Positions 2,140 to 31,756 of a stretch of 32,450 nt of DNA are shown here, in pieces (position 1 is the stretch's first letter; every line of letters starts with the position of its first letter). The stretch is taken from positions 16,329-48,778 of the forward strand of contig PMWW01000148.1 in NCBI GenBank assembly GCA_003165795.1, read 5' to 3'. Origin of the DNA: Acidobacteriaceae bacterium. Its GTDB lineage: Bacteria; Acidobacteriota; Terriglobia; Terriglobales; Acidobacteriaceae. Below the pieces are notes generated by a model, which was not told where the DNA came from, did no database searches, and saw nothing but the letters and a program-made list of their open reading frames with translations. The translations under genes were made by a program, and so were the position numbers.

Positions 2140-2871
2140 TGGAGCCTTGAATCAGGATCTCGAACAGCAGACGGCCTACGTCAAGCGCCAACTTCATACG
2201 GAGTTCGGAACTGACTCCCCAATGCTTGAAGTCCAGTTCGTCCTCTGCAAGTAAAGCCAGGGCAGCGCGACGGTGGCGCAGACTGCTAGGCGTCTCTTCG
2301 GCGTGTGACGGCTCGGGCGAACGAACCTTCTCGATGAGATAAGGGATGGCTGCTGCGCGGACAAGGCGGATACCATCAGCCGCCGTACTGCGACAGAAAT
2401 CGCTCTCGAGCGCCGCCACAAGCACGGGAGCTGCCGCGTCGCGATGGAACCCCGCAAGCGCTTCGACTGCGCCAGGCAACTTTCGTGCGGCTGCAACCGC
2501 ACGCAGTACATAAAAGGCCTCGTCTGACTGGCTTCGACCCACCTCTCGCGCAGCGGTGTTCTCCACTGCCTCTTCTGCCAGACGAAGCACTGGATCCTGA
2601 ATACCTTTCTCGCGAAGTAAGTAATCAGTCAATGCAAAAAATGCCCGCAATTCACCTAGTACGCGCACGACGCGCTGTCGCGGGAGATACACAGTGCTCG
2701 GCTTGCCTTCCAGCAGAACCCGGCGCAAAGCCGGAATCGAAGCTTCGCCCACTCCGACCAGGGCCGCCATGCTCAGCTCACCATCGGTAAGCGAGAACAG
2801 TCCCTGAACCAGCCGTTCGATTCCCGCCTCGTCGTTATCCAACTGTGCGCCACGTTCAACGACTCCCGCCA

Positions 2872-2872
<1 letters not shown>
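2108..2872 (-). CDS. HEAT-repeat-like helical protein
   Basis: A 254-residue Ala/Leu/Arg-rich alpha-helical protein. Several helix pairs of HEAT character are visible: ASIPALRRVLLEG then RQRVVRVLGELRAF, later DAAAPVLVAALES and RAAAIPYLIEKVRS. No signal peptide or membrane segment is seen. The ATG at 2872 shares one base with the enolase stop (TGATG), so translation is coupled, and the end overlaps the dynamin-stalk ORF. HEAT proteins are scaffolds or adaptors; the partner is unknown, but the placement suggests the enolase or the dynamin-like protein. I do not recognise a named family. Confidence 0.65.
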
Positions 2873-4184
<1,312 letters not shown>

Positions 4185-9818: not shown

Positions 9819-10185
9819 TGGTGGAGGCGGCGGGAGTTGAACCCGCGTCCGAAAATGTTGTCAGCAAAGAGCCTACATACTTAGTCACGTTCATGCGCCG
9901 GGGTTAGACGGCACTCTCGCCGGCCACGCTCAGAGCGGACAAGAAACGCGGCCTGCCAACCTGATGATCTCGCCGTCAACTCACAGGTGGAGAGTTGGTA
10001 GCCAGCTCACTGTGCGACGCCCTTTCCCAGCCCATGAGCAAAGCCGAGGAGGACGGCAACTTAATTAATTAAGCTGCGTATGCCAGGTTTTGATTGGCAA
10101 TTGTGTTTTTGCACACGATTACGGATGCGTGCACTCCGGTATGCCTCTTTACCGCAATCACTTCCGTCGAAGCCGTGACGCCCCC
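9819..10185 (-). ncRNA. ssrA: tmRNA (transfer-messenger RNA)
   Basis: About 367 nt, one-piece tmRNA that rescues stalled ribosomes and tags the nascent chain for proteolysis. The 5' end GGGGGCG followed by TCACGGCTTCGAC pairs with the 3' strand CGCCTCC before ACCA, giving the 7-bp acceptor stem. The T-arm GCGGG-TTCAACT-CCCGC and the encoded CCA are intact at 9819. The tag reading frame lies at 10069-10098 on the minus strand: GCC AAT CAA AAC CTG GCA TAC GCA GCT TAA, giving ANQNLAYAA, if GCC is the resume codon. A second in-frame stop follows (TAATTAATTAA). The hydrophobic -AA end fits ClpXP recognition. The pseudoknot region was not folded by hand. Confidence 0.96.
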
Positions 10186-10947: not shown

Positions 10948-11191
10948 GTTCGAGAACAACCTCCCGGCTGTGGCGGCGATTGGGCCAGCGGGACTTCGTA
11001 CCGCGCAGATGCGGATTCGTGCATCCCACGGCCTGCGGAATCATCCAAACCTCTTGCCTGCCTGTTAGTCTGATACCCGTGGCACGAATGGCCGAATTCA
11101 TGAAAAGATTGGCTGCGATTGACCGCATTGTTTTTTTCGGGGTTGACCTAATGTGCCGGGTTGGCCGGCGCAATTGTCGGGAGACCGTCTC

Positions 11192-12805
11192 GTGATTCCC
11201 GATTGCATCTCCTTCAACGCCATTCCCCACACCACCCGCATCTTCAGCGATTTCCTTTCGTACTCTCCCGATGTCCGCAAATTTTTTCCGACCCAACCGG
11301 ATGCCGCGCATATAGCTGCGTGGGCAAAATCCGTTCCCCGCGATCTGACCCGCCAGGCCCGTGTAGCGGATGCGTTGGTGAAACAGAATCGCGCCTGGGG
11401 GGCCTCGGAGGCGACGCTGCGCAACCTTCGGCGGCTTCGCGACGGCGCATTCGCCGTGGTCACCGGCCAGCAGGTGGGACTGTTCGGCGGTCCGTTGCTC
11501 TCGCTGTTGAAAGCGGCGTCGGTACTTGCGCTGGCGAAGCAGGTTGAAGAGCTGGGTGTGGAATGCGTGCCGGTGTTCTGGCTGGCCACGGAAGATCACG
11601 ACCTCGCCGAGGTCAACCAAGCACTGCTGCTGACCCACGATTTTCAACTCGCTGCCTTCACTGCCCAGACTAACGGGGCCGCAGGCGCTCCCGTTTCGAC
11701 CATCCGATTCGCCGCAGGCACCAACGACTTGGTCGCGCAGGCCGCGCAGTTACTGGGCGAATCGCTGGCTGCTGACTACCTGCGCGAGAGCTACGTCGAG
11801 GGCGAAACCTTCTCTAACGCCTACGCAAGGCTTTACACTCGCATCTTTAATGGACGCGATCACGGCCTTATTTTTTTCGATCCTGCTGACCCCGAGCTCC
11901 ACCGTATTGCCACTCCGCTATTCGTGGAAGCCGTCAGCCGCTCGGCCGAGCTGGATGACGCTCTGCTGGCCCGCAATCGCGAGTTGCACGCAGCTCAATA
12001 TCACGAGCAGGTGAAAGTCACTCCGCAATCGACTCCTCTGTTCGCGCTGGCCGAAGGGGTGCGCGTCCCCATCCATCGCGCCAATGGTCAGTTCGCCGTC
12101 GCCCGCGAGCGCCTTTCGAGCGCCCAATTGCAGCGTCGCATCGAAGTCGCTCCGGAGAACTTCAGCGCCAACGTGCTGCTGCGTCCGGTGCTGCAGGACT
12201 ACTGGCTCCCCACGCTGGGCTACATCGGCGGGCCGGCCGAAATCGCCTACTTCGCGCAAGCCGGCGTGGTTTATGAAAAGTTGCTCGGCCGGATTACGCC
12301 CATTCTTCCGCGATTGAGTGCGACGCTGATCGAGCCGCGCATCGAGCGCCTGCTCACCAAGTATGAAATCGAGCTGCCGGAACTCTTCCACGGCGAATGC
12401 CAGCTACGCGAGTGCCTAGCAGCGCGTTCGCTGCCGGCCGATCTCAGACAAAATTTCGAAAACGCGAGGCGAAGTGTGGACGACGTCATGCAACACGTCA
12501 GCAGCTCTCTGCAAACCCTTGATCCCACGCTGGTCGAAGCCGCTGGACGCGCCGCCGGCAAGATGCAATACCAGGTCAATCGCCTGCAGAAACGCGCTGC
12601 CCAGGCTGAGCTCCGCCGCACTGAGATCCTGACGCGGCACGCCATGCAGATCGAGAACGCTTTGTATCCCAAGAAATCGTTGCCGGAGCGCGAGCTCGCG
12701 GGACTGTATTTCTACGCGAACCATGGGCCGGAGTTGATCGACCGCCTCATCGAGTTAGCTGCTGCCCGTTGCCCCGAACACAAAGTGCTGTTGCTAGGCG
12801 CTTAG
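11192..12805 (+). CDS. bshC: Bacillithiol biosynthesis cysteine-adding enzyme BshC
   Basis: BshC adds L-cysteine to glucosamine-malate, the last step of bacillithiol synthesis. The 537-residue product carries VTGQQVGLFGGPLLSLLKAA (N-terminal Rossmann-like core), PVFWLATEDHDLAEVNQ (family hallmark EDHD-EVN) and GYIGGPAEIAYFAQ. A long helical coiled-coil segment precedes the C-terminus. I chose the GTG at 11192 (GGGAG 8 bases upstream), which gives MIPDCISFNAIPHTTRIF, close to family N-termini; an ATG at 11153 adds 13 residues without a ribosome site. A 31-codon ORF from 11101 ends in TGA overlapping this GTG. No bshA or bshB is in the window. BshC is known in Firmicutes, Bacteroidota and Acidobacteriota, which supports the taxon guess. 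Confidence 0.93.
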   Translation: MIPDCISFNAIPHTTRIFSDFLSYSPDVRKFFPTQPDAAHIAAWAKSVPRDLTRQARVADALVKQNRAWGASEATLRNLRRLRDGAFAVVTGQQVGLFGGPLLSLLKAASVLALAKQVEELGVECVPVFWLATEDHDLAEVNQALLLTHDFQLAAFTAQTNGAAGAPVSTIRFAAGTNDLVAQAAQLLGESLAADYLRESYVEGETFSNAYARLYTRIFNGRDHGLIFFDPADPELHRIATPLFVEAVSRSAELDDALLARNRELHAAQYHEQVKVTPQSTPLFALAEGVRVPIHRANGQFAVARERLSSAQLQRRIEVAPENFSANVLLRPVLQDYWLPTLGYIGGPAEIAYFAQAGVVYEKLLGRITPILPRLSATLIEPRIERLLTKYEIELPELFHGECQLRECLAARSLPADLRQNFENARRSVDDVMQHVSSSLQTLDPTLVEAAGRAAGKMQYQVNRLQKRAAQAELRRTEILTRHAMQIENALYPKKSLPERELAGLYFYANHGPELIDRLIELAAARCPEHKVLLLGA

Positions 12806-18051: not shown

Positions 18052-18954
18052 GTGTTCGAAATCGTGGAAGCACGCACCTTGGCGCGAGGTATCAAGCTTT
18101 TTGTGATTGAGGCTCCCCGGATTGCCCGCAAACAGAAGCCGGGGCAGTTTGTCATCTTGCGGTTGGACGACCGTGGCGAGCGAATCCCCCTCACCATTGC
18201 CGACGCCGACGCCACCGCTGGCACCGTCACCATTGTCGTGCAGGCCATCGGCAAGACCACCATGCTGCTCAGCATGCTGGAGGCGGGCGACTCCATCCTC
18301 GACATGGTCGGTCCTCTCGGCAAGCCCTCTGAAATCGAAAACTTCGGCACCGCGGTGGTCGTCAGCGGCAGCGTCGGCACGGCGATGGCTTATCCCACGG
18401 CTCGCGAGCTGAAGCGCGCCGGGAACAAGGTCATCTCCATCGTTGGGGCGCGCAGCAAGGACCTGCTGGTGCTGGAAGAGGAGGTCCGCGCGGTCAGCGA
18501 CGAGACCTACGTGGTGACTGACGACGGCAGCTATGGCGACAAGGGCCTGGTCACCGACAAGCTGAAAGAACTGGTCGCCGCCGGCCAGGTCAATTATGTG
18601 CTTGCCGTCGGCCCGGTGCCCATGATGCGTGCCGTGGCGAACCTCACTGCCCCTAGCAAAATCAAGACCATGGTCAGCTTGAATTCCATCATGGTCGACG
18701 GCACCGGAATGTGCGGCGGTTGCCGCGTGCTGGTCAATGACAGCAGCCAATTCGCCTGCGTGGACGGTCCCGAATTCGATGCCACCCAGGTCAACTTCGA
18801 GGTCCTGATGCAGCGTAACAACATGTACCGCGAGCAAGAGCGTGCCAGCATCGAGCGGTTGCAAGCCGATCCTGAAGCCGAGCTAAAACGGATACGCGAC
18901 AGTGTTCACAGCCACGAGTGCGCGGCGGAAGCAGCGGCGGTGAGCCATGAGTAA
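18052..18954 (+). CDS. nfnA: NfnA-like FAD/[2Fe-2S] subunit (sulfide dehydrogenase/NfnA family)
   Basis: A 300-residue ferredoxin-NADP-reductase-fold protein. KPGQFVILRLDD...RIPLTIAD is the FAD domain, and GTAVVVSGSVGTAMAYP with VGARSKDLL the NAD(H) domain. The C-terminal D216-GTGM-C221-GG-C224...C236 ligands match the Asp plus three-Cys [2Fe-2S] site described in NfnA. In complex with the next protein it forms NAD-dependent ferredoxin:NADP+ oxidoreductase (NfnAB), which bifurcates electrons from NADPH to NAD+ and ferredoxin; the same family includes SudB. The GTG at 18052 has a strong GGAGG site. It overlaps nfnB by 8 bases. The C-terminal 40 residues are a charged helical tail. Whether it bifurcates cannot be read from the sequence. 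Confidence 0.87.
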   Translation: MFEIVEARTLARGIKLFVIEAPRIARKQKPGQFVILRLDDRGERIPLTIADADATAGTVTIVVQAIGKTTMLLSMLEAGDSILDMVGPLGKPSEIENFGTAVVVSGSVGTAMAYPTARELKRAGNKVISIVGARSKDLLVLEEEVRAVSDETYVVTDDGSYGDKGLVTDKLKELVAAGQVNYVLAVGPVPMMRAVANLTAPSKIKTMVSLNSIMVDGTGMCGGCRVLVNDSSQFACVDGPEFDATQVNFEVLMQRNNMYREQERASIERLQADPEAELKRIRDSVHSHECAAEAAAVSHE

Positions 18955-20413
18955 TCCTCCAACCAAAGTCCCTAGCCACAATCCTCTCCCGAACAAAGAG
19001 CGCGTCAAACTGCCGCGCCAGCGCGTTCCCGAGCAGGAGCCGCAGGTCCGTGCCCACAACTTCCAGGAAGTGAATCTCGGCTTTCCCGAGGAGCAGGCCC
19101 GGCAGGAATCGCTGCGTTGTATCGAGTGCAGCAAGCCGGGATGCATCGAGAAGTGCCCCGTCTCGGTCGACATCCGCGCAGTCATCGATCTCATCCTGGC
19201 CGGGGACTACCTGGGCGCAGCGTCGAAAGTCCGTGAAGACAATGCGCTGCCCGCGATCACCGGCCGCGTCTGTCCGGTCGACGATCAGTGCGAGTCAGGT
19301 TGCGTGCTGGGTAAGAAGGGCGAACCGGTTGGAATTGCCTACCTGGAGCGGTTTGTCGCCGACTGGGAGCGCGAAACGGGACAATTCGGATCTCCTGTAT
19401 CCGCGCCCGCTACCGGCAAGAAGGTCGGCCTTGTTGGCAGCGGCCCTGCGAGTTTGGCTTGCGCCGGCGATCTCATCCAGATGGGTCACCAGGTGCATGT
19501 TTTTGAAGCTCTCCATGAGCTGGGCGGCGTTCTGGTCTATGGCATTCCAGAGTTTCGCTTGCCGAAGGAGATCGTCCGCCACGAAATTCACGTGCTGCAG
19601 CGTCGCGGGGTGGTCTTCGAGACCAACGTCGTGGTGGGCAAGACAGTCACCATCGACGAACTGATGCAGGACGAAGGCTTCGACGCCATGTTCATCGCTA
19701 CCGGCGCCGGCCTGCCGCGCTTCCTGAAAGTCCCCGGTGAGCATTTCAACGGCGTCTATTCCGCCAATGAATTCCTTACCCGGGTGAACCTGATGCGGGC
19801 TTACCGCTTCCCCGAATTCGACGAGCCCCTTTACCCCTGCACAGACCGCGATGTAATCGTGGTCGGCGGCGGCAACACCGCCATGGATTCGGTGCGTAGC
19901 GCGTTGCGCCTGGGCGCGCGCAGTGCCAGCATCTTCTACCGTCGGACCTTGGTAGAGATGCCTGCCCGCAAGGAAGAAGTACACCATGCCAAAGATGAGG
20001 GTGTTCACTTTGAAATGCTGGTGAACCCGGTGGAGTTTCTCGGCGACGAGAAGGGTAATCTTACCGCCGTGAAGTGCATCCGCCAGGAACTGGGTGAGCC
20101 CGACGACTCCGGCCGTCGCAGTCCCGTCCCGGTCAATGGATCGGAGTTCGTCACGCCGTGTTCAGTTGCGATTATCGCGGCGGGCACGTCGGCGAATCCT
20201 CTCATCCAGTCGACGACGCCGGGATTGGCTACCACCAAGCGCGGCTACATTTCCGCCAACGAAGAAACGCTCGCGACATCGAAGCCGGGCGTCTTCGCCG
20301 GCGGCGACATCGTAACTGGCGGCGCGACGGTAATTCTCGCCATGGGCGCCGGCCGAAAAGCAGCAAAGTCGATCAATGCCTATTTGACTGGGCTGGTAGT
20401 GGTTCCGAACTGA
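18947..20413 (+). CDS. nfnB: NfnB-like subunit (NADPH-dependent, GltD family)
   Basis: A 488-residue flavo-iron-sulfur protein of the glutamate synthase small-subunit family. The N-terminal Fe-S part has C58-C61-C66-C70 (CIECSKPGCIEKC) and C109, C115, C119 (CPVDDQCESGC). The FAD motif is GSGPASLACAGDL, with ELGGVLVYGIPEFRLPK after it, and the NADPH motif is VVGGGNTAMDSVRSALRLGA. The C-terminus has GVFAGGDIVTGGATVILAMGAGR. Alone this family can be GltD, but pairing with an overlapping NfnA gene and no gltB nearby favours NfnB/SudA. It would supply reduced ferredoxin or balance NAD(P)H pools in the cytosol. The start overlaps the nfnA stop (ATGAGTAA). Confidence 0.88.
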   Translation: MSNPPTKVPSHNPLPNKERVKLPRQRVPEQEPQVRAHNFQEVNLGFPEEQARQESLRCIECSKPGCIEKCPVSVDIRAVIDLILAGDYLGAASKVREDNALPAITGRVCPVDDQCESGCVLGKKGEPVGIAYLERFVADWERETGQFGSPVSAPATGKKVGLVGSGPASLACAGDLIQMGHQVHVFEALHELGGVLVYGIPEFRLPKEIVRHEIHVLQRRGVVFETNVVVGKTVTIDELMQDEGFDAMFIATGAGLPRFLKVPGEHFNGVYSANEFLTRVNLMRAYRFPEFDEPLYPCTDRDVIVVGGGNTAMDSVRSALRLGARSASIFYRRTLVEMPARKEEVHHAKDEGVHFEMLVNPVEFLGDEKGNLTAVKCIRQELGEPDDSGRRSPVPVNGSEFVTPCSVAIIAAGTSANPLIQSTTPGLATTKRGYISANEETLATSKPGVFAGGDIVTGGATVILAMGAGRKAAKSINAYLTGLVVVPN

Positions 20414-20712: not shown

Positions 20713-21903
20713 TCACTCCCACAGCGCCGCCGAGCCGCCTACCCATTCCAGGTTCTTGTTGTGATCGACGCCCATCATGATGCCGCGTCCCATGCGCACC
20801 AGCGGTAGCACTGGCGTTAGCTCGCCGCCTTCGGGCCACACAAACATCATGCGAATTTCCATCTGTGTCGCCCCGTGCGGAGTCTGGATCACCGGCTCGA
20901 ACTGCACCCGCTCCTGCAAGATGTAATTGTGGCGTTGCTCGACCGGGATCGCATCGATGTCGGCTTGCGTCGGCGTAAACTTGATCCCCACTCCAGCAAA
21001 CGAATACAGCGGCTTGAGCAGGTAGTTTTCGTTATCTTTCGGAAGCTCGCGAACCTCATCGAGGAACCACGTCTTGGGCACGCATCGGTGCTTCAAATAC
21101 GGAATCGAAAACTTGCTGATGCGGAAATACCAGTTGGGGTGTCCGGCCCACTCGACGTCAAGCTCGTCGCGCAAATCAAACGGCAGCGTCACTCCCTTGC
21201 GCTCCAGTTCATCCACGATGCAGCGGTTATAAATGCGCCTCACCTCGATCTCGCGACCATCCTTGCTGTAAACAAGCTGTTTCCCACGCTTCTTCAGCGA
21301 CAAAATATCAACCACTGCGATCCCCAGTTCGCGCTGCATGACCAGGAAATCGGGCAGCGTCTTCTGCTGTTCCGGATCAATCTCCATCAGGATCACGTTT
21401 TCGGGATCGTGATCGGCAACGATGAGCTGTCGCATCAGCTTCCAATATGAGTGGTGATCGTGACCGCTGAGGTAGATGCCCAGATCAGGCGACAAACCGT
21501 ATGACTCAACATACTGATGTGCGGCTCTTGGCTGGTATCCATAAAGAGAAGGGAAAGCTTGCAACTCGACGAGCTTCGGCTCCAGTTCTCCACTGGCACT
21601 GCGCACTAACCCGAAATCTATCTGCACGAACATCGGCAGCGGAGATTCTTTCGGGACGTTATATTGTGGGGGGACAGACGCATCGGAGGCGCGCCGGTAT
21701 TCGGGATTGTCTACCAGTTGCGCAACGAGTTCACGCCCATCCTGCGCCATCAGGTCGAGCAGGCTCCTGGGGACGAAACACGGCGTCTCCGACACGCGAA
21801 ATCCGATGTGGGTACCGCAGGCTTTATCCAGGCTCTGCAGGAGTTGCTGGTACTTCCCTGGCGTGTAATTACGGTTGAATTCCTCGCGGAGGGCGGGAAT
21901 CAT
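20713..21903 (-). CDS. ATP-grasp-fold ligase-like protein
   Basis: A 396-residue cytosolic protein. The N-terminal half has PMFVQIDFGLVRSASGELEPKLVELQAFPSLYGYQ, and a Rossmann-like middle (NVILMEIDPEQQKTLPD) leads to an ATP-grasp-type region: NYLLKPLYSFAGVGI (ATP-binding Lys), YILQERVQFEPVI (hinge) and EIRMMFVWPEGG. The end is GRGIMMGVDHNKNLEWVGG. I cannot name the family. ATP-grasp enzymes join a carboxylate to an amine or thiol through an acyl phosphate. Its ATG at 21903 lies 2 bases after the aminopeptidase stop, so it is the last gene of a five-gene operon with two other ligase-type enzymes. Confidence 0.68.
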   Translation of the reverse strand: MIPALREEFNRNYTPGKYQQLLQSLDKACGTHIGFRVSETPCFVPRSLLDLMAQDGRELVAQLVDNPEYRRASDASVPPQYNVPKESPLPMFVQIDFGLVRSASGELEPKLVELQAFPSLYGYQPRAAHQYVESYGLSPDLGIYLSGHDHHSYWKLMRQLIVADHDPENVILMEIDPEQQKTLPDFLVMQRELGIAVVDILSLKKRGKQLVYSKDGREIEVRRIYNRCIVDELERKGVTLPFDLRDELDVEWAGHPNWYFRISKFSIPYLKHRCVPKTWFLDEVRELPKDNENYLLKPLYSFAGVGIKFTPTQADIDAIPVEQRHNYILQERVQFEPVIQTPHGATQMEIRMMFVWPEGGELTPVLPLVRMGRGIMMGVDHNKNLEWVGGSAALWE

Positions 21904-21905
21904 GG

Positions 21906-22943
21906 TCAGGCCTCGATGAGGAAGCGCCCTTTCTCCATGATCTGCCGGCCGTCAACCCAGATGTCGAACTTCGTTCCCACCACGTCGATGTGCGTGCTGG
22001 AATACCACTTCGCCCCGGTATGCTCGCCGTAGGGATTGCCAAAGGCAATGTGGATGCCGGGGAACTTTTCGTCCTGAAGAATCTGTCCGATCACGTGCGT
22101 CAGCTCGATGTTGGTTCCGATAGCAAACTCGCCCACTTGGTCACTATTTTCGTCGGTGTGCGTGTAGGCCCAGAATTCCTGCTCCAACTCTTTGTTGTCG
22201 CTGGAAACTTCGGTGATGCGGTTGTTGCGCATGTGAATCGTCAGCGGCTGCCGCGCCAGGTCCTGATATTTCTCGCACAAGTAGTCGCCCACCACACCGT
22301 CGACGACGCACACGCCATTCACTTCTCCCGGCGCGGTGAAGATTTCGCCGCCGGGAAGATTGCCCCACTTGTCGCGACTGATAATGCCGCTGGTCTTGAT
22401 CCAGTGGTAGTTCGGGTTCAGCGTAGCCGTGAAATCGCTGCCCGCGGGATTGGTGGCGCGAATCTCTTTTGCCTGGGCGACGATGTCCATCACTTTACGA
22501 CTGAGCGCATCGACCTTGTTGTAGTCGGCGCGCATACCTTCCAGCATGATCTGCTTATCGATATTGACCATGTGAGCGTGCCGCATCTTGCGCCGATTCA
22601 CGATGTCGGTCATCTGCATCCGCGACTTCAGCTCATTGCGCTGCACGCGCACGGCGAAGACGCTGACCTGACTGGTCTCCATGTCCTCGGCAATCTCGGG
22701 TGGCAGATCGGTCAGTGGGCGTGGCGCCAGGTCTTCCAACACGAAGGCCTTAAACGGCGACCCCAGCTCGGTCAGTTCCTGCGCCAGGCTGGCCGCGATC
22801 TCCCGGCAGGCGTTGTCGGTAATCAGCGTGACCTTTTCCCCCGGCTGAATGCGCAGACAGGTTTGCACTGCGTTACGAGCGCCCGGAGAAAGTTCGGGAT
22901 CGAATGTTGTATGAGTGAGATCGGTGAGAACTGGTTGAATCAA
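21906..22943 (-). CDS. M29-family (AmpS/COG2309) metallo-aminopeptidase
   Basis: A 345-residue cytosolic peptidase. LPGGEIFTAP carries the first metal Glu, with GVCVVDGVVGDY after it. VGEFAIGTN carries the second Glu, and HIAFGNPYG plus STHIDVV supply the His and Asp ligands, as in M29 aminopeptidases that release N-terminal amino acids. I prefer a TTG start at 22943 (AAAGGA 6 bases before), since an alternative TTG at 22949 sits on top of the ribosome site. It is flanked by the YbdK-like ligase (58-base gap) and the ATP-grasp gene (2-base gap). It may trim or recycle the peptide product of the cluster. It is not related to the window's other peptidase-like folds. Confidence 0.83.
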   Translation of the reverse strand: MIQPVLTDLTHTTFDPELSPGARNAVQTCLRIQPGEKVTLITDNACREIAASLAQELTELGSPFKAFVLEDLAPRPLTDLPPEIAEDMETSQVSVFAVRVQRNELKSRMQMTDIVNRRKMRHAHMVNIDKQIMLEGMRADYNKVDALSRKVMDIVAQAKEIRATNPAGSDFTATLNPNYHWIKTSGIISRDKWGNLPGGEIFTAPGEVNGVCVVDGVVGDYLCEKYQDLARQPLTIHMRNNRITEVSSDNKELEQEFWAYTHTDENSDQVGEFAIGTNIELTHVIGQILQDEKFPGIHIAFGNPYGEHTGAKWYSSTHIDVVGTKFDIWVDGRQIMEKGRFLIEA

Positions 22944-23001
22944 GAACAATCCTTTCTTGCCACTCTTTTTATAATGCTGGCGCTACTTGCTCGGCGCCGT
23001 C

Positions 23002-24114
23002 TTACTCGAATACTCCGACGCGCGTCTCATTCACCATATAATCGACAACTTTCTTCAGATCGCCGGTTTCCTCGAAGACCTTCAGCTGCCGGTCGGCGCC
23101 GGTGCCCATCTTTAACATCTGGTGAATGTAATTGATTTCGTTGCGCGAGCCAAGTTCCTCCGCCGCATCGTCAATCAGTTCCAGGTATTCCAGCATCAGG
23201 TCGCGGACCGGGACCTCTTCCTCTGTTCCGAAATCGATAAGCTTGCCCTGGATCCCGTATCGCGATGCGCGAAACTTGTTCTCCATGAGGAGCGAACGGC
23301 CATAGATGCGATAGCTCTTGTTGGACGCATGCAGCTTATACAGCATGGCGATGGTCGCCTGAATCAGCGCCGCGATTGCCACGGTTTCATCCAGCCGCAT
23401 CGGGATATCGCACACCCGCACCTCCAGCGTGTGAAAAAATGGATGCGGCCGGATGTCCCACCATATCTTCTTGCCGTTGTCGATGCAATTGGTCTTCACC
23501 AGCAGGGCAACAAAGTTCTCATAGTCGGACCAGTTGGCGAAGGTGTCGGGAATTCCGGTGCGGGGAAAGCGCTCAAATACTTTGCAGCGGTATGACTTAA
23601 ATCCGGAATTCATGCCCATCCAAAAGGGCGAGTTGGTGGAGAGCGCCAGGATGTGCGGCAGAAAATACCGCATGGAATTCATGATGTGGATGGCAGTATT
23701 GCGGTCTTCAATGCCGATGTGCACGTGCAGTCCGAAAACTAGGTTGGCGCGCGCAATCAGCTGCATGTCCTCAACCACCCGCGCATAGCGCTCGTCGGGA
23801 TAGATCTCCTGCAACTTCCAGTCGGAGAATGGATGGGTACTACCTGCCGCCAGCAACATACCGTGCTCGCTGGCCAAGCTAATCATTTCGCGGCGCAAAG
23901 ACTGTATGTTCTCCCGCGCTTCCTTGATGTCCTTGCAAACCCGGGTGCCTACCTCGATGACGGACTGGTGCATCTCCGGCTTCACCGCTTCATGCAGTGC
24001 CAGCTTGGCCTTGGGAAGAATCTCCGATTGAATGTGCGAACGGAGATCGCGCGTCTCCGGATCAATCGTCTGATATTCCTCTTCAATCCCGATGCTCAGG
24101 CTTGGCCGGTCCAT
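23002..24114 (-). CDS. Carboxylate-amine ligase of the GCS2/YbdK family
   Basis: A 370-residue enzyme of the glutamine-synthetase-like fold. It begins SLSIGIEEEYQTIDPET, the hallmark Glu cluster of family 2 glutamate-cysteine ligases. It continues with QSVIEVGTRVCKDIKEA, LLAAGSTHPFSDWKLQ, FGLHVHIGIED (His-x-His metal site), PFFHTLEVRVCDIPMRLDET and NKFRASRYGIQGKLIDF. Members ligate glutamate or another carboxylate to an amine using ATP; YbdK has weak glutamate-cysteine ligase activity and the true substrate is unclear. The ATG at 24114 follows the ATP-grasp stop by 5 bases with AAGGAG as ribosome site. With bshC elsewhere in the window, glutathione synthesis is not the expected role. Confidence 0.88.
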   Translation of the reverse strand: MDRPSLSIGIEEEYQTIDPETRDLRSHIQSEILPKAKLALHEAVKPEMHQSVIEVGTRVCKDIKEARENIQSLRREMISLASEHGMLLAAGSTHPFSDWKLQEIYPDERYARVVEDMQLIARANLVFGLHVHIGIEDRNTAIHIMNSMRYFLPHILALSTNSPFWMGMNSGFKSYRCKVFERFPRTGIPDTFANWSDYENFVALLVKTNCIDNGKKIWWDIRPHPFFHTLEVRVCDIPMRLDETVAIAALIQATIAMLYKLHASNKSYRIYGRSLLMENKFRASRYGIQGKLIDFGTEEEVPVRDLMLEYLELIDDAAEELGSRNEINYIHQMLKMGTGADRQLKVFEETGDLKKVVDYMVNETRVGVFE

Positions 24115-24119
24115 CTGGT

Positions 24120-25142
24120 TTACTCCTTGCCTACGCGCTTCCTAACCTGCTTGGATACCACCGCAGGCTTCGATGCTGGGTCCTTCGTCTTGGAATCCGC
24201 TTCCGCCGTGTAGCCGCTTAGAAATGCGCTCCAGCGATACTCTGGAGCCACGCCAGCCTGTTGCTTGGCTTTACGAATCGCTAGTTCCGCCACGGCATTC
24301 ACGATCCAGTCAAAACTTTCCTGACCGACTGAGTTTACATCAGCATCGGGCGCAGGATTCATGAAGTCGATGGCATACGGAATCCCATCCTCGCAGGCGA
24401 ACTCCACGGTGTTCAGATCGTAACCCAGAGCGCGACACAGAGTGAGCGAATCGCGCTCCACCCGCGCGATCAGCTTGGGATCGGTTGGCGGCGGGTCCTT
24501 CACGTAGCGTTCGTGAAACGGCAGCGACGGATCGTAGTGCATAATATGCACCTTCTGCTGGCCGACGACGTAGCAGCGGAAATATTCCTTGAACTTCACA
24601 CCGCGCTGCAGCGTCATGCACAGATCGCGCGACTGATCATAGGCATTGAAGAACTCTTCCGGCGAATTGACCTTGTACACGTTCTTCCAGCCGCCGCCGT
24701 CGAAGGGCTTCAGGAACGCGGGAAAGCCAACGTAGCTGAAGATGCTGTCCCAAGGCATGGGGTATTGCAGGTTGCGCATGGAGCGGTCCGTCGTACCTGC
24801 CGGATGCTCCTTGTGCGGGATCAAGACGGTGGGCGGAATCGCCACGCCCAGCTTTTCGCCAAGTGCATAGTTGAAGAACTTGTCGTCGGCGCTCCACCAG
24901 AAAGGATTGTTGATGACGATGGTGCCTGACAGCGCTGCGTTCTTCAGATAGGCGCGGTAAAACGGAATGTCGTGCGAGATACGATCGATAATCACCTGGT
25001 AGGGAGAAGGCTCGGCCATCCGCACCTCGCCGACGGTAGCCAGCTCGGCCTGGATGTCAGGCTCGCCCATGGAGTTGATCTTGTCGACCAACGCCGGCGG
25101 AAACGTGGTCTCCATACCAAATATGATTCCGATTTTCTTCAC
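24120..25142 (-). CDS. ATP-grasp (RimK/D-Ala-D-Ala-ligase-like) ligase
   Basis: A 340-residue ATP-grasp enzyme. An N-terminal Rossmann-like start (KKIGIIFGMETTFP) is followed by VGFPAFLKPFDGGGWKNVYKV (ATP-binding Lys and Gly loop), EYFRCYVVG (conserved Arg) and TVEFACEDGIPYAIDFMNPAPDAD, the Mg-binding Glu/Asp/Asn end. The C-terminal 20 residues are Lys-rich. The GTG at 25142 has AAGGAG 6 bases upstream and begins VKKIGIIFG; the open frame continues upstream to 25565 but that part is low-complexity antisense to the esterase. Together with the YbdK-like ligase it could build a short gamma-linked or isopeptide product. The substrate is unknown. Confidence 0.8.
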   Translation of the reverse strand: MKKIGIIFGMETTFPPALVDKINSMGEPDIQAELATVGEVRMAEPSPYQVIIDRISHDIPFYRAYLKNAALSGTIVINNPFWWSADDKFFNYALGEKLGVAIPPTVLIPHKEHPAGTTDRSMRNLQYPMPWDSIFSYVGFPAFLKPFDGGGWKNVYKVNSPEEFFNAYDQSRDLCMTLQRGVKFKEYFRCYVVGQQKVHIMHYDPSLPFHERYVKDPPPTDPKLIARVERDSLTLCRALGYDLNTVEFACEDGIPYAIDFMNPAPDADVNSVGQESFDWIVNAVAELAIRKAKQQAGVAPEYRWSAFLSGYTAEADSKTKDPASKPAVVSKQVRKRVGKE

Positions 25143-25290
25143 GACTGCTCCTTGGCGAGCGACACGAGTCCTGTCTTGCCGGTTCGCTGCTTTATGTGGG
25201 AAGGCCCGGGAAACGTGCGAGGGGCGCACTACAACTCCAAATATTGTAGGCGAAACAGCCCGAAATGAGTAGGGGACACGCGCCCTTCGG

Positions 25291-25995
25291 CTATCCCAGG
25301 TAAGCCCGCGCCATGGGCCGCCACCACGGCCAATCGTGATAGCTCTGGTCGCCCCACACGTACATTTCATGCCGGATGCCGCGCGAGCCCAGGATCGCTG
25401 CCATTCGACTATTGTCGTTCCAGCACATGTCCCATTCGCCGGTCGACAGCACGGTGCGCATATGGTTATAGCGCCAGCCATCGGTGCAGTTCGCCAGGTA
25501 GTCCGGCGGGTTGTTGAAGTACGCATCCTCGCTGTACCAGCCGTCGAGAAATTTCTTGATGTCAAAAGCTCCGGCCATGCTAACGCAATCGGTCACTTTG
25601 TCGGGATGGCGGAAGGCGAAGTTCAAGGCGTGGTAGGCGCCAAAACTGCAGCCGGTAACGATGGTCCGTGGGTTCCAGTTCTTGCGCCACATCAGTGGAA
25701 TCACGTCGTTCAGAATGTAGCGTTCGTATTGCAGATGCCGCTGCACCCGCCAGTAAGGATGCGCCCTTTTGTTGTACCAGCTTTCGCTGTCAACGCTATC
25801 GACGCAGTAAATCTGCAGTTGCCCGGCATCCAGCCGGTCAGCCACTGCGGCAACCATCTTGTTGTCTTCGTACTCGTAGAATCTACCTTGAGAAGTGGGG
25901 AAGACGATGACCTTCGGACCATCGTGGCCGAAGACCAGCATGTCCATGTCGCGTTGCAGGTCATTGGACCACCAACGATGATATTCACGATTCAC
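25291..25995 (-). CDS. Esterase-family alpha/beta hydrolase
   Basis: A 234-residue putative esterase. It begins MNREYHRWWSNDLQRDMDML, then VFGHDGPKVIVFPTSQGRFYEYED, a family N-terminal pattern. The nucleophile elbow is G-C-S117-F-G (VTGCSFGAYHAL), and the likely catalytic His is in GDQSYHDWPWW. No signal peptide is seen. I chose the GTG at 25995 (AGGGG 10 bases upstream) over a GTG at 26034, which lacks a site. It is the first gene of the operon, 148 bases before the ATP-grasp gene; that gap has no clear promoter. The divergent gene at 26074 encodes another esterase-type hydrolase. Confidence 0.8.
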   Translation of the reverse strand: MNREYHRWWSNDLQRDMDMLVFGHDGPKVIVFPTSQGRFYEYEDNKMVAAVADRLDAGQLQIYCVDSVDSESWYNKRAHPYWRVQRHLQYERYILNDVIPLMWRKNWNPRTIVTGCSFGAYHALNFAFRHPDKVTDCVSMAGAFDIKKFLDGWYSEDAYFNNPPDYLANCTDGWRYNHMRTVLSTGEWDMCWNDNSRMAAILGSRGIRHEMYVWGDQSYHDWPWWRPMARAYLG

Positions 25996-26024
25996 TTTGT
26001 TTAAGCCCCTGACGGAGAGATTGG

Positions 26025-26052
26025 TTGCAAGCACACCAGCGTTTGGTAATCT
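26025..26052 (+). promoter_or_regulatory. Possible promoter of the divergent esterase gene
   Basis: TTGCAA (26025-26030) and TAATCT (26047-26052) with a 16-base spacer, 21 bases before the ATG at 26074. The match is moderate. It lies in the 78-base divergent interval between the two esterase genes. Confidence 0.3.
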
Positions 26053-26073
26053 GGGAATCCAACATTCTACAGG

Positions 26074-26919
26074 ATGCCACGCGAGGCGATCATAACGAAC
26101 CCCACGACCGACATGAACGATACCCCGGTTGCCGAGCCCGGCAATCTGAAATCCCGTCTACGTCTGCACCAGCAATTCGCCTCCCAGGTCGAAGACGAGA
26201 AACACGACTTCGTCGTCTATCTGCCGCCCCGGTACGATGCCGAGCCCGACCGCCGCTTCCCCGTGCTCTGTATGCAGGACGGGCAAAACCTGTTTGACCC
26301 GGATACTTGTTTTATCCACGGCAATTATTGGCGCATGGGCGAGACCGCCGACGAGTTGATCGGCACCGGCGAGATTGAGCCGCTGATTATCGTCGGCATC
26401 TACAACACCGGGGAACACCGCATCGACGAGTACACCCCGGTCGAGGACAAGCGCCTCGGGGGTGGCCAGGCCGATGCCTACGGCCAGATGCTGGTAGAGG
26501 AGCTGAAACCGTTCGTCGATCAGACCTATCGCACGTTGCCTGGAGAAGCGAACTGCGCCCTGGGCGGATCGTCGCTGGGGGGGCTGGTTACTCTTTACCT
26601 GGGTCTGCGTTACACCTGGGTCTTCAGCAAACTGGTGGTCATGTCGCCGTCGGTTTGGTGGCGCAACCGCGCCATCCTCAAAACTGTGGCGCAGATCAAA
26701 CGCAAGCCCGAGCTCAAGATCTGGCTCGACATCGGGACCAAAGAGGGCCAGCGCGCTCTGCCCGATGCACGCGAACTGGAGCTGGCTTTGGTCAAGAAAG
26801 GCTGGGTGCTCGGCCATGATCTTTCCTACCTGGAAGTCCCGGACGCTGAGCACAATGAAGTCGCTTGGGCGCAGCGCGTCGCCCCCATGCTGAAGTTCCT
26901 GTTCCCGCCGCAGGAATAG
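26074..26919 (+). CDS. Putative esterase (alpha/beta hydrolase, Fes/enterochelin-esterase-like fold)
   Basis: A 281-residue cytosolic hydrolase. DFVVYLPPRYDAEPDRRFPVLCMQDGQNLFDP is typical of the putative-esterase family. The nucleophile elbow is GG-S-S167-LGG (ALGGSSLGGLVTLYLGLRY), and the acid and His candidates are IGTKEG (Asp just before) and DAEHNEVAW (H261). No signal peptide is seen. The ATG at 26074 has little ribosome-site support; an ATG at 26113 is possible. It is divergent from the esterase/ATP-grasp operon and probably shares regulation with it. The substrate is unknown; it may cleave an ester or thioester of the cluster's product. Confidence 0.8.
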   Translation: MPREAIITNPTTDMNDTPVAEPGNLKSRLRLHQQFASQVEDEKHDFVVYLPPRYDAEPDRRFPVLCMQDGQNLFDPDTCFIHGNYWRMGETADELIGTGEIEPLIIVGIYNTGEHRIDEYTPVEDKRLGGGQADAYGQMLVEELKPFVDQTYRTLPGEANCALGGSSLGGLVTLYLGLRYTWVFSKLVVMSPSVWWRNRAILKTVAQIKRKPELKIWLDIGTKEGQRALPDARELELALVKKGWVLGHDLSYLEVPDAEHNEVAWAQRVAPMLKFLFPPQE

Positions 26920-30760: not shown

Positions 30761-31756
30761 ATGGCTGCGCGACCCCAACCCATCCGCGAGCAGGACCTGC
30801 GCGATCTCGGCTTTGGCGCGGTCGTCTCCCGCGAGAGCCACCAGCGCCTGCTGAATCGCGATGGTAGCTTCAACGTGGAGCGCCGCGGTTTGGGCTTTTT
30901 CACTTCCTTGAACTTGTACCACGTGCTGCTCACCATGCCTTGGTGGCAGTTTTTCCTGATCGGTCTTGGCTCGTACATCCTAGCCAATACGATGTTTGCC
31001 GCCGCTTACCTGGCCTGCGGTGCCAATGCCCTCGTCAGCAGCGCTCCCGGTATGGAGCAGCACCCGTTTCTGCGCGCTTTCTTCTTTAGTGTGGAGACCA
31101 TCTCCACCATTGGATACGGCAACGTCGTACCCATCGGCATTGCCGCGAACCTGGTCGTCACCGTCGAAGCGCTGGCCGGGCTGACGGGTTTTGCCATCGT
31201 GACTGGCCTGCTGTTTGCGCGCTTCTCGCGGCCGACAGCCAAGGTCGTATTCAGCAGCCATGCGGTGATTGCGCCTTACCAGAACGTCACGGCATTGGAA
31301 TTTCGCGTCGCCAACGCGCGCTCCAACGAGCTGATCGAGGTTTCCGCTAAGGTCATGTTTAGTCGCTTCGAGCAAGTGGACGGCGTGCGCACCCGGCGAT
31401 ACTACCCACTTTCCCTGGAGCGCGACGGGGTTGTATTCCTTCCTTTGACCTGGACGGTGGTGCATCCCATTGACGAGAACAGCCCTCTGCACGGGGAGAC
31501 CCTGGAATCGATGCACAATTCGCGGACCGAGGTCCTGGTGTTACTGAAAGCTTTCGACGAGACCTTCTCCACCCAGGTCCAGACTCGCACCTCGTACACC
31601 CCGGACGAGATGATCTGGGGAGCGCGCTTCGCCAATGCCTTTATGTCGGACGCCGTCGAGCGATTCGTTAATAATTCTGGAACGGATAAAAAGGTCGCGA
31701 TAGATATGCGGCTGTTCGATAAGATCGAGCGTGCTGGCGACTTATTAATTCATTGA
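30761..31756 (+). CDS. KirBac-type inward-rectifier potassium channel
   Basis: A 331-residue two-helix potassium channel. An N-terminal cytoplasmic slide region (RGLGFFTSLNLYHVLLTMPW) leads to TM1 (about 61-85), the pore helix (FLRAFFFSVETIS), the selectivity filter TIGYG (116-120) and TM2 (about 127-150, LAGLTGFAIVTGLLFARF). The rest is the immunoglobulin-like C-terminal Kir domain, with FSSHAVIAPYQNVTALEFRVANAR and the YYPLSLERDGVVFLPLTWTVVHPIDE block. Length fits KirBac1.1-like channels (about 330). The ATG at 30761 has no strong ribosome site. The channel conducts potassium across the inner membrane and is gated by cytoplasmic ligands and pH. Confidence 0.94.
   Translation: MAARPQPIREQDLRDLGFGAVVSRESHQRLLNRDGSFNVERRGLGFFTSLNLYHVLLTMPWWQFFLIGLGSYILANTMFAAAYLACGANALVSSAPGMEQHPFLRAFFFSVETISTIGYGNVVPIGIAANLVVTVEALAGLTGFAIVTGLLFARFSRPTAKVVFSSHAVIAPYQNVTALEFRVANARSNELIEVSAKVMFSRFEQVDGVRTRRYYPLSLERDGVVFLPLTWTVVHPIDENSPLHGETLESMHNSRTEVLVLLKAFDETFSTQVQTRTSYTPDEMIWGARFANAFMSDAVERFVNNSGTDKKVAIDMRLFDKIERAGDLLIH

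Follow-up and report, generated by a model that had tools for sequence, protein, structure and literature searches.

We analysed a stretch of 32,450 nucleotides (hereafter the window) from an Acidobacteriaceae bacterium (GenBank assembly GCA_003165795.1, contig PMWW01000148.1, positions 16,329 to 48,778), with attention to a cluster of genes for predicted amide-forming ligases and hydrolases. The source genome (G000 in our numbering of genomes) is fragmented into 208 contigs. Five genes lie on the minus strand between 20713 and 25995 in the order E1 (alpha/beta hydrolase), GB (ATP-grasp), Yb (YbdK/GCS2), M29 (peptidase) and GA (ATP-grasp), and the esterase gene E2 is divergent from them. A preliminary description, made from the letters alone, had proposed six open frames here, and all of them are present at the positions it gave. 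The gaps of 2, 5, 58 and 148 bases between the five genes were reproduced with GB starting at GTG 25142 and M29 at TTG 22943; a start of M29 at TTG 22949 instead changes the gap of 58 to 52. The genes are as follows.

25291..25995, minus strand: E1, Putative esterase family member of the alpha/beta hydrolase type (GTG start at 25995; alternative start at 26034)
24120..25142, minus strand: GB, ATP-grasp ligase with a predicted RimK/LysX/D-Ala-D-Ala-ligase-type fold (GTG start behind AAGGAG)
23002..24114, minus strand: Yb, YbdK-type GCS2 carboxylate-amine ligase by its matches to NF010039 and PF04107
21906..22949, minus strand: M29, putative M29-family metallo-aminopeptidase (PF02073; TTG start at 22949 or 22943)
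20713..21903, minus strand: GA, circularly permuted glutathione-synthetase-type ATP-grasp ligase by its predicted structure
26074..26919, plus strand: E2, esterase-family hydrolase (PF00756), divergent, a peripheral member

PADLOC models of anti-phage defence gave no match to the six cluster proteins up to E 0.01, and promoter and terminator scans returned nothing exceeding shuffles.

Judged by its sequence, Yb is a full member of the YbdK-type GCS2 ligases. It scored 535.9 bits against NF010039 of NCBIfam (cut-off 371, residues 3-368) and 216 bits against PF04107 of Pfam (cut-off 21), and matched YbdK in the Protein Data Bank (PDB; 1r8g) with an E-value of 1.9e-61. The GhExE motif, described as the Mg/ATP signature of GCS2-type ligases (PMC2588565), corresponds to G9-I10-E11-E12-E13 and is invariant in 16 sequences. 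Matches to Yb were found in 72 of 72,556 plasmid records. Around the YbdK match in two such records no ATP-grasp neighbour is annotated, unlike in the gene set of the window, annotation there being incomplete.

The two remaining ligases were recognised by structure prediction. Neither GA nor GB reached the cut-off of any family in Pfam or NCBIfam, the best for GA being PF14397 (15.4 bits against 31.4), and a profile of 54 GA sequences had no match to PDB sequences up to E 1. The structure of GA predicted from these 54 aligned sequences (predicted local distance difference test, pLDDT, 91.8) was compared with known structures by VIA-align. The best matches were YgiC (Z 25.2; 3.5 A over 343 residues) and YjfC (24.4), followed by human glutathione synthetase (23.3), glutathionylspermidine synthetase (23.2) and Cp1B (22.5); the first 26 matches score Z 19-25, after which the scores drop to 11.8 and 8.2. 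E113, K297 and an FAGxG loop, whose roles we infer, are invariant or nearly so in the 54 sequences. By its model, then, GA is an ATP-grasp protein with the permuted fold of YgiC and glutathionylspermidine synthetase, that of the eukaryotic glutathione synthetase. It differs from the E. coli proteins YgiC, YjfC and glutathionylspermidine synthetase in having only 11-14% identity to them, in lacking an amidase domain and in being accompanied by Yb, GB and M29. GB, modelled from 21 aligned sequences (pLDDT 81.4, below 50 in the last 23 residues), matched RimK best (Z 22.5, 264 residues at 2.8-3.0 A), then LysX (21.5) and Ddl (20.0), and its sequence profile gave weak matches to pyruvate carboxylase, biotin carboxylase and Ddl. 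The model of GB is that of a RimK/LysX/Ddl-type ATP-grasp fold; since many ATP-grasp enzymes, including inositol kinases, score Z 20-21, this fold fixes no exact reaction. Both predicted structures thus back the ATP-grasp assignment made in the preliminary description.

The peptidase assignment called for a choice between two families. M29 scored 56.8 bits against PF02073 of Pfam (cut-off 27) over profile positions 186-356 of 406 only. E202, E274, H300, Y307, H320 and D322, which we take to be metal or catalytic sites of the family, are invariant in 34 sequences. In an alignment with AmpS, which ends before H320, the first four face identical residues; H320 and D322 line up with a His and an Asp of 7cn3 only. 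The latter structure, a 2,5-dihydroxypyridine dioxygenase, was the best PDB match in a single-sequence phmmer search (E 4.9e-4), and came second (7.5e-4) to AmpS (5e-5) when the 34-sequence profile was used. We considered whether M29 might be a 7cn3-like dioxygenase, a non-peptidase relative. Two glutamates of the M29 family are kept and invariant in M29, where 7cn3 has F and P, so that a metal site of the peptidase type is more likely.

Against PF00756, E1 scored 31.6 bits (cut-off 22) and E2 108 bits. Ser117, in a GCSFG stretch, Asp189 and His220 of E1 are invariant in 24 sequences and can be read as a catalytic triad. E1 matched 14 of the plasmid records, and GA, GB and the family X introduced below matched none. 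Among five plasmid neighbourhoods of Yb or E1 matches that were inspected, one of them unannotated and examined through its ORFs, an ATP-grasp gene stands beside E1 in Peptoclostridium only, where an E1 relative (37.5% identity) adjoins an ATP-grasp_4 gene (PF13535; locus L121, 4800-6765). The product of the latter has no phmmer match to GB or GA. This arrangement may mean that a partnership of E1 with ATP-grasp ligases is more widespread.

We then asked how the genes are arranged elsewhere. Relatives of GA in named genomes were confirmed in at least 588 stretches, and the best 80 were used; since these are mostly labelled acidobacterial, phyla beyond Acidobacteriota are hardly sampled. By tblastn, M29 was present in 70 of the 80 loci, Yb in 64, GB in 57, E1 in 45 and E2 in 5. 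Many of the loci end at contig ends, and 49 have at least 7 kb upstream of GA. Of these, 43 hold M29 and Yb, 40 GB, 35 E1 and 5 E2; GA stands alone in the other six. All 43 loci with at least Yb-M29-GA keep the order and strand of the window: 30 read E1-GB-Yb-M29-GA, five the same with divergent E2, five lack E1, and three lack both E1 and GB. The search for the same gene set in other genomes, suggested in the preliminary description, recovered at least Yb-M29-GA, with the genes present in the window's order, in 43 of 49 loci, and the cluster is more than chance. In other families the order recurs as GB-Yb-(M29 or X)-GA.

The esterases fared unequally. The preliminary description had counted E2 as an equal part of the cluster; with 5 of the 35 E1-containing loci it is a peripheral member. 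It adjoins E1 in both congeners inspected for it, G002 and G005, and also in G349. The suggestion that the hydrolases act on storage forms is unsupported. In five congener loci (L040-L044) E1 is missing from the DNA beside GB and other genes occupy its place. Loss of E1 from these congeners, which we considered, proved wrong: E1 sits elsewhere in the genome. It was found in all eight congeners searched (one a fragment), and among the seven with a GA match only G004 has it on the contig of GA, the other six having it on a different one, in genomes that are fragmented.

The intergenic spaces offered no further product gene. Open reading frames (ORFs) 20-79 codons long that lie between the genes or up to 800 bases to either side were clustered in the 45 five-gene loci. 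The commonest one between the genes occurs in only 5 of 45, in agreement with the earlier statement that no ribosomal precursor is present. The biggest clusters were found outside the set, downstream of GA in 15 loci and upstream of E1 in 8 loci; other genes stand at these places, and the small ORFs are probably shadow frames of them. These data bear on whether the cluster might tag a protein or peptide, with GB adding residues to its end, Yb or GA capping the tag, and M29 or X trimming it. RimK and LysX/ArgX, the best structure matches of GB, act on proteins or carrier proteins, which would suit such tagging. So would the best matches of GA, YgiC and YjfC, peptide-spermidine ligases according to the title of a reference within PMC12568646. 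A fold, however, tells nothing about substrate size; among ORFs of at least 20 codons in the related loci no carrier or tag gene lies between the genes, those of at least 80 codons being sporadic, though the target may be encoded elsewhere, and we regard tagging as improbable.

GA was searched for in 396 sampled Acidobacteriota genomes and found in 49, two of them doubtful (G152, with an E-value of 1.2e-4, may hold another ATP-grasp protein, and G233 has a C-terminal fragment). The partner genes were searched for in 80 genomes, namely the 49 positives and 31 picked negatives (16 of the 20 listed negatives of the window's family and 15 others), a match being E <1e-20. In the window's family all 21 GA-positive genomes have M29, GB, Yb and E1, and the 16 GA-negative genomes tested have M29 in none, GB in four, Yb in none and E1 in six. 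In a search of the whole sample with M29, the 21 are the only members of this family that match, so that none of its GA-negative members, at least 20 in number, has M29; among the family genomes searched, none was seen with GA, Yb or M29 alone. Outside the family, Yb was found in 24 (one partial), GB in 25, E1 in 25 and close M29 in 7 of 28 GA-positive genomes, compared with 3, 3, 3 and 0 of 15 GA-negative ones; one of the latter (G080) has a distant M29 match below 1e-20.

Linkage is not needed for this co-occurrence. In 10 of the 21 family positives (G114, G123, G159, G175, G183, G253, G261, G301, G349 and G357) GA and M29 are separated by 36 kb or more or lie on different contigs, for example by 481 kb in G349 and on two contigs in G123; in G253 the position of GA matches locus L099 of Edaphobacter lichenicola. 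The preliminary description had named relatives with unlinked genes as an argument against its proposal. Such relatives do exist, but all five genes are present in each of the ten, which turns the argument in favour of the proposal. A gene set kept whole though scattered is a probable pathway.

The same distribution was weighed against a glutathione-like thiol or cofactor as product. Here Yb would make gamma-Glu-Cys, GA would complete a tripeptide or polyamine conjugate, E1 and E2 would be S-acyl hydrolases, and M29 or X would serve turnover. YbdK has gamma-glutamyl:cysteine ligase activity according to the title of Lehmann 2004, cited in PMC2588565, the model of GA has the eukaryotic glutathione synthetase fold, and the E1 profile weakly matches a chain of S-formylglutathione hydrolase (E 5.8e-4). 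On the other side, the sampled GA-negative members of the family also lack M29 and, where tested, Yb, and the window itself carries bshC, for the bacillithiol cysteine-adding enzyme (11153-12805, plus strand; PF10079, 271 bits). Acidobacteria are predicted to make bacillithiol, as described in PMC6282198. With bshC in the window and bacillithiol predicted for the phylum, a second thiol is not needed and the glutathione-like role becomes less likely; we judge it unlikely overall.

Patchiness within the family (21 sampled genomes with GA and at least 20 without) would also fit a catabolic or salvage route, in which an amine is glutamylated for uptake or breakdown and M29 or X then frees the glutamate. 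The use of putrescine proceeds in this manner, by glutamylation of the amine and later release of glutamate, and a glutamyl ligase with a hydrolase makes a make-and-break pair. Further support might come from a permease family encoded downstream of GA in 32 of the 80 related loci and including a member that Pfam assigns to the amino-acid permeases. The earlier statement that no transporter is present thus holds for the window and not for all related loci. Families of a kinase, PIG-L and this permease lie downstream of GA in many loci and are absent from the window; because the kinase and PIG-L genes come before the permease gene, its link to the set is doubtful. The conserved set contains no oxidoreductase or aminotransferase, three ligases exceed the need of such a route, and we give salvage only a small chance. 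Also downstream of GA, a short gene (c23) and a response-regulator-like gene (c16) stand in L107, L113, L115 and L117, and genes resembling them, by eye only, lie downstream of the E1-GB pair in L129 and L130.

Inspection of loci from other families revealed that M29 has an alternative. In G396, a genome of the same class, X, a protein of 342 residues, replaces M29 between Yb and GA, and X is likewise found between Yb and GA in G087, G250, G274 and G062; in G306 it comes after Yb, and GA is some 100 kb distant. X was counted at E <1e-20 (four weaker matches were dropped) and the close M29 family at E <1e-60, by which 83 of 114 matching genomes were dropped, most near 30% identity and including a 63%-identical fragment in G154. 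Among the 396 genomes, X occurs in 23, close M29 in 31 and both in none. The 49 GA-positive genomes comprise 28 with M29, 15 with X, none with both and six with neither. The chance figure for this exclusion, 3e-8, ignores descent, and alternation within genera is better evidence for an exchange. In genus g97, M29 is present in G187 and G305 (between Yb and GA) and X in G127 and G375; in genus g132, M29 is present in G353 and X in G211. The distance from X to E1 is 2.5 kb in G127 and 70 kb in G375, and in G211 they lie on different contigs.

X carries the motifs GGPG (G88-G91), CHSFG and NHHPE, in which C137, H254 and E256 are invariant in 22 sequences. The Cys, the His-x-Glu and GGPG resemble motifs of class I glutamine amidotransferases, in which a Cys nucleophile and a His-x-Glu make up the triad. 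In hhalign against amidotransferase domains, 22 X sequences gave 25% with both motifs aligned, and five control profiles gave at most 1.1%; with six sequences the value was 2.1%, the E1 control giving 2.8%. An unrelated chain (E 0.015) ranked above GMP synthase, which the X profile matched weakly (E 0.023). These results lend weak support to X being amidotransferase-like. Such an enzyme would suit Yb as a partner, since class I amidotransferases cleave gamma-glutamyl amides, which GCS2 enzymes make. A family of GCS2-sized ligases is described as adjoining amidotransferase-like thiol peptidases or gamma-glutamyl cyclotransferases (PMC2588565).

A further permuted ATP-grasp protein, CP (47.7 bits against PF14403 for the query), occurs in five of the six GA-positive genomes without M29 and X, all but G233; its gene in G152 is flanked by GB and Yb. 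It is also present in two GA-negative genomes, between E1 and GB in G145 and near Yb in G095. CP may stand in for GA, though five genomes (G025, G094, G255, G295 and G311) have both. It was found in 28 plasmid records, with 22-29% identity among the 15 matches listed. At L134 (G025) two permuted ATP-grasp genes are near Yb, at 2290-3639 and from about 7025, so that enzymes of this kind are arranged differently there.

These data also bear on whether the genes are unrelated neighbours held together by chance or shared inheritance. The sampled genomes are related, which inflates the counts, and the E1-GB pair can stand alone. But co-occurrence outlasts the loss of linkage, the order with M29 or X is kept in other families, and M29 and X alternate inside two genera; we therefore consider mere neighbourhood very improbable.

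On the basis of gene order, unlinked co-occurrence and three ligase architectures, we propose, with a probability of roughly 0.5, that the five minus-strand genes form one amide-forming pathway for a small molecule, independent of nonribosomal peptide synthetases (NRPS). This is the core of the non-ribosomal amide or short-peptide pathway of the preliminary description, with E2 no longer an equal part and with the alternation of M29 and X and the glutathione-synthetase-like fold of GA added to it. The presence of the set in many soil Acidobacteriota points to a small molecule built without the ribosome. Yb would link a carboxylate, probably glutamyl, with an amine to yield a gamma-glutamyl-type amide. 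GB would add an amino acid to a carboxylate, as RimK and LysX do, and GA, like YgiC/YjfC or glutathionylspermidine synthetase, would form a terminal amide using an amino acid or a polyamine. M29, or X in genomes without M29, would cleave an amide of an intermediate or of the product, perhaps to take off a glutamyl protecting group, and E1 would cleave an ester or thioester. A more specific version, which we hold only tentatively and think doubtful, is that the three ligases, of unrelated architectures, make a gamma-glutamyl-type pseudopeptide or polyamine amide whose transient glutamyl group is removed in some lineages by M29 and in others by X, a new amidotransferase-like family and its non-orthologous replacement. 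If so, M29 and X would share one substrate.

Several observations weigh against the proposed pathway and the exchange of M29 for X. The counts treat related genomes as independent and are uncorrected for descent. Four GA-positive genomes (G118, G196, G233 and G369) lack Yb, so the glutamyl step would be dispensable or done otherwise, and the pair of E1 and GB occurs without GA, Yb or M29 in four genomes (G069, G132, G167 and G237). It is only by their distribution that M29 and X are alternatives. Weak partial matches to M29 (E 5e-6 to 8e-5, 32-37% identity) were found in three X genomes (G196, G306 and G369), and a weak X match (3.6e-4) in the M29 genome G171; we counted all of these as other family members. 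No GA match was found in eight X genomes and three M29 genomes, and GA-positive G094, G152, G233, G255, G295 and G311 have neither M29 nor X. Finally, X has no significant match in Pfam; a single one of its 22 members reaches GATase_5, at E 0.19.

Among known systems, the closest in kind are the amidoligase clusters of Iyer et al. (2009, Mol Biosyst), in which ATP-grasp and glutamine-synthetase-fold ligases reportedly occur with peptidases of unrelated folds and which are said to be predicted peptide or amide makers. The likeness lies in mixed ligases and peptidases in one neighbourhood. We place the gene set in this known kind, as a variant that is new subject to that 2009 survey; the M29/X alternation is not known to be described there. 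In a literature search by titles and abstract starts no paper on this set was found, the 2009 survey, likeliest to mention it, being outside the search; "carboxylate-amine ligase" combined with "Acidobacteri" returned 0 papers. Another parallel is the biosynthesis of E-64, where, as outlined in PMC12568646, a glutathione-synthetase-fold ATP-grasp enzyme (Cp1B, among the GA matches at Z 22.5) and a second stand-alone ligase, an amide synthetase, make a pseudopeptide without NRPS. The second ligase there is of ANL type, whereas our cluster has a GCS2 ligase, a RimK-like ATP-grasp protein and the M29 peptidase.

Acidobacteriota abound in soil, and only a few metabolites are known from them. The gene set gives a joint context to GA and GB, ligase families without a curated name, and to the unnamed family X. 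Its product should be findable, since the positive genomes include those of named isolates (Edaphobacter lichenicola, Granulicella), and GA-negative relatives in the same genus (g14) are natural controls.

Elsewhere in the window the following features were recognised, the tmRNA being the only Rfam match.

3738-4178 and 2872-3684, minus strand: enolase, split over two frames
9819-10185, minus strand: tmRNA gene, tag ANQNLAYAA (ARAGORN, Rfam)
18052-20413, plus strand: two adjacent oxidoreductase genes, one for an iron-sulfur/NAD-binding subunit, the other for a flavin oxidoreductase that has an iron-sulfur domain
30761-31756, plus strand: bacterial inward-rectifier-type potassium channel (PF17655, PF07885)

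The split of the enolase gene is either a frameshift or an assembly error in the fragmented genome.

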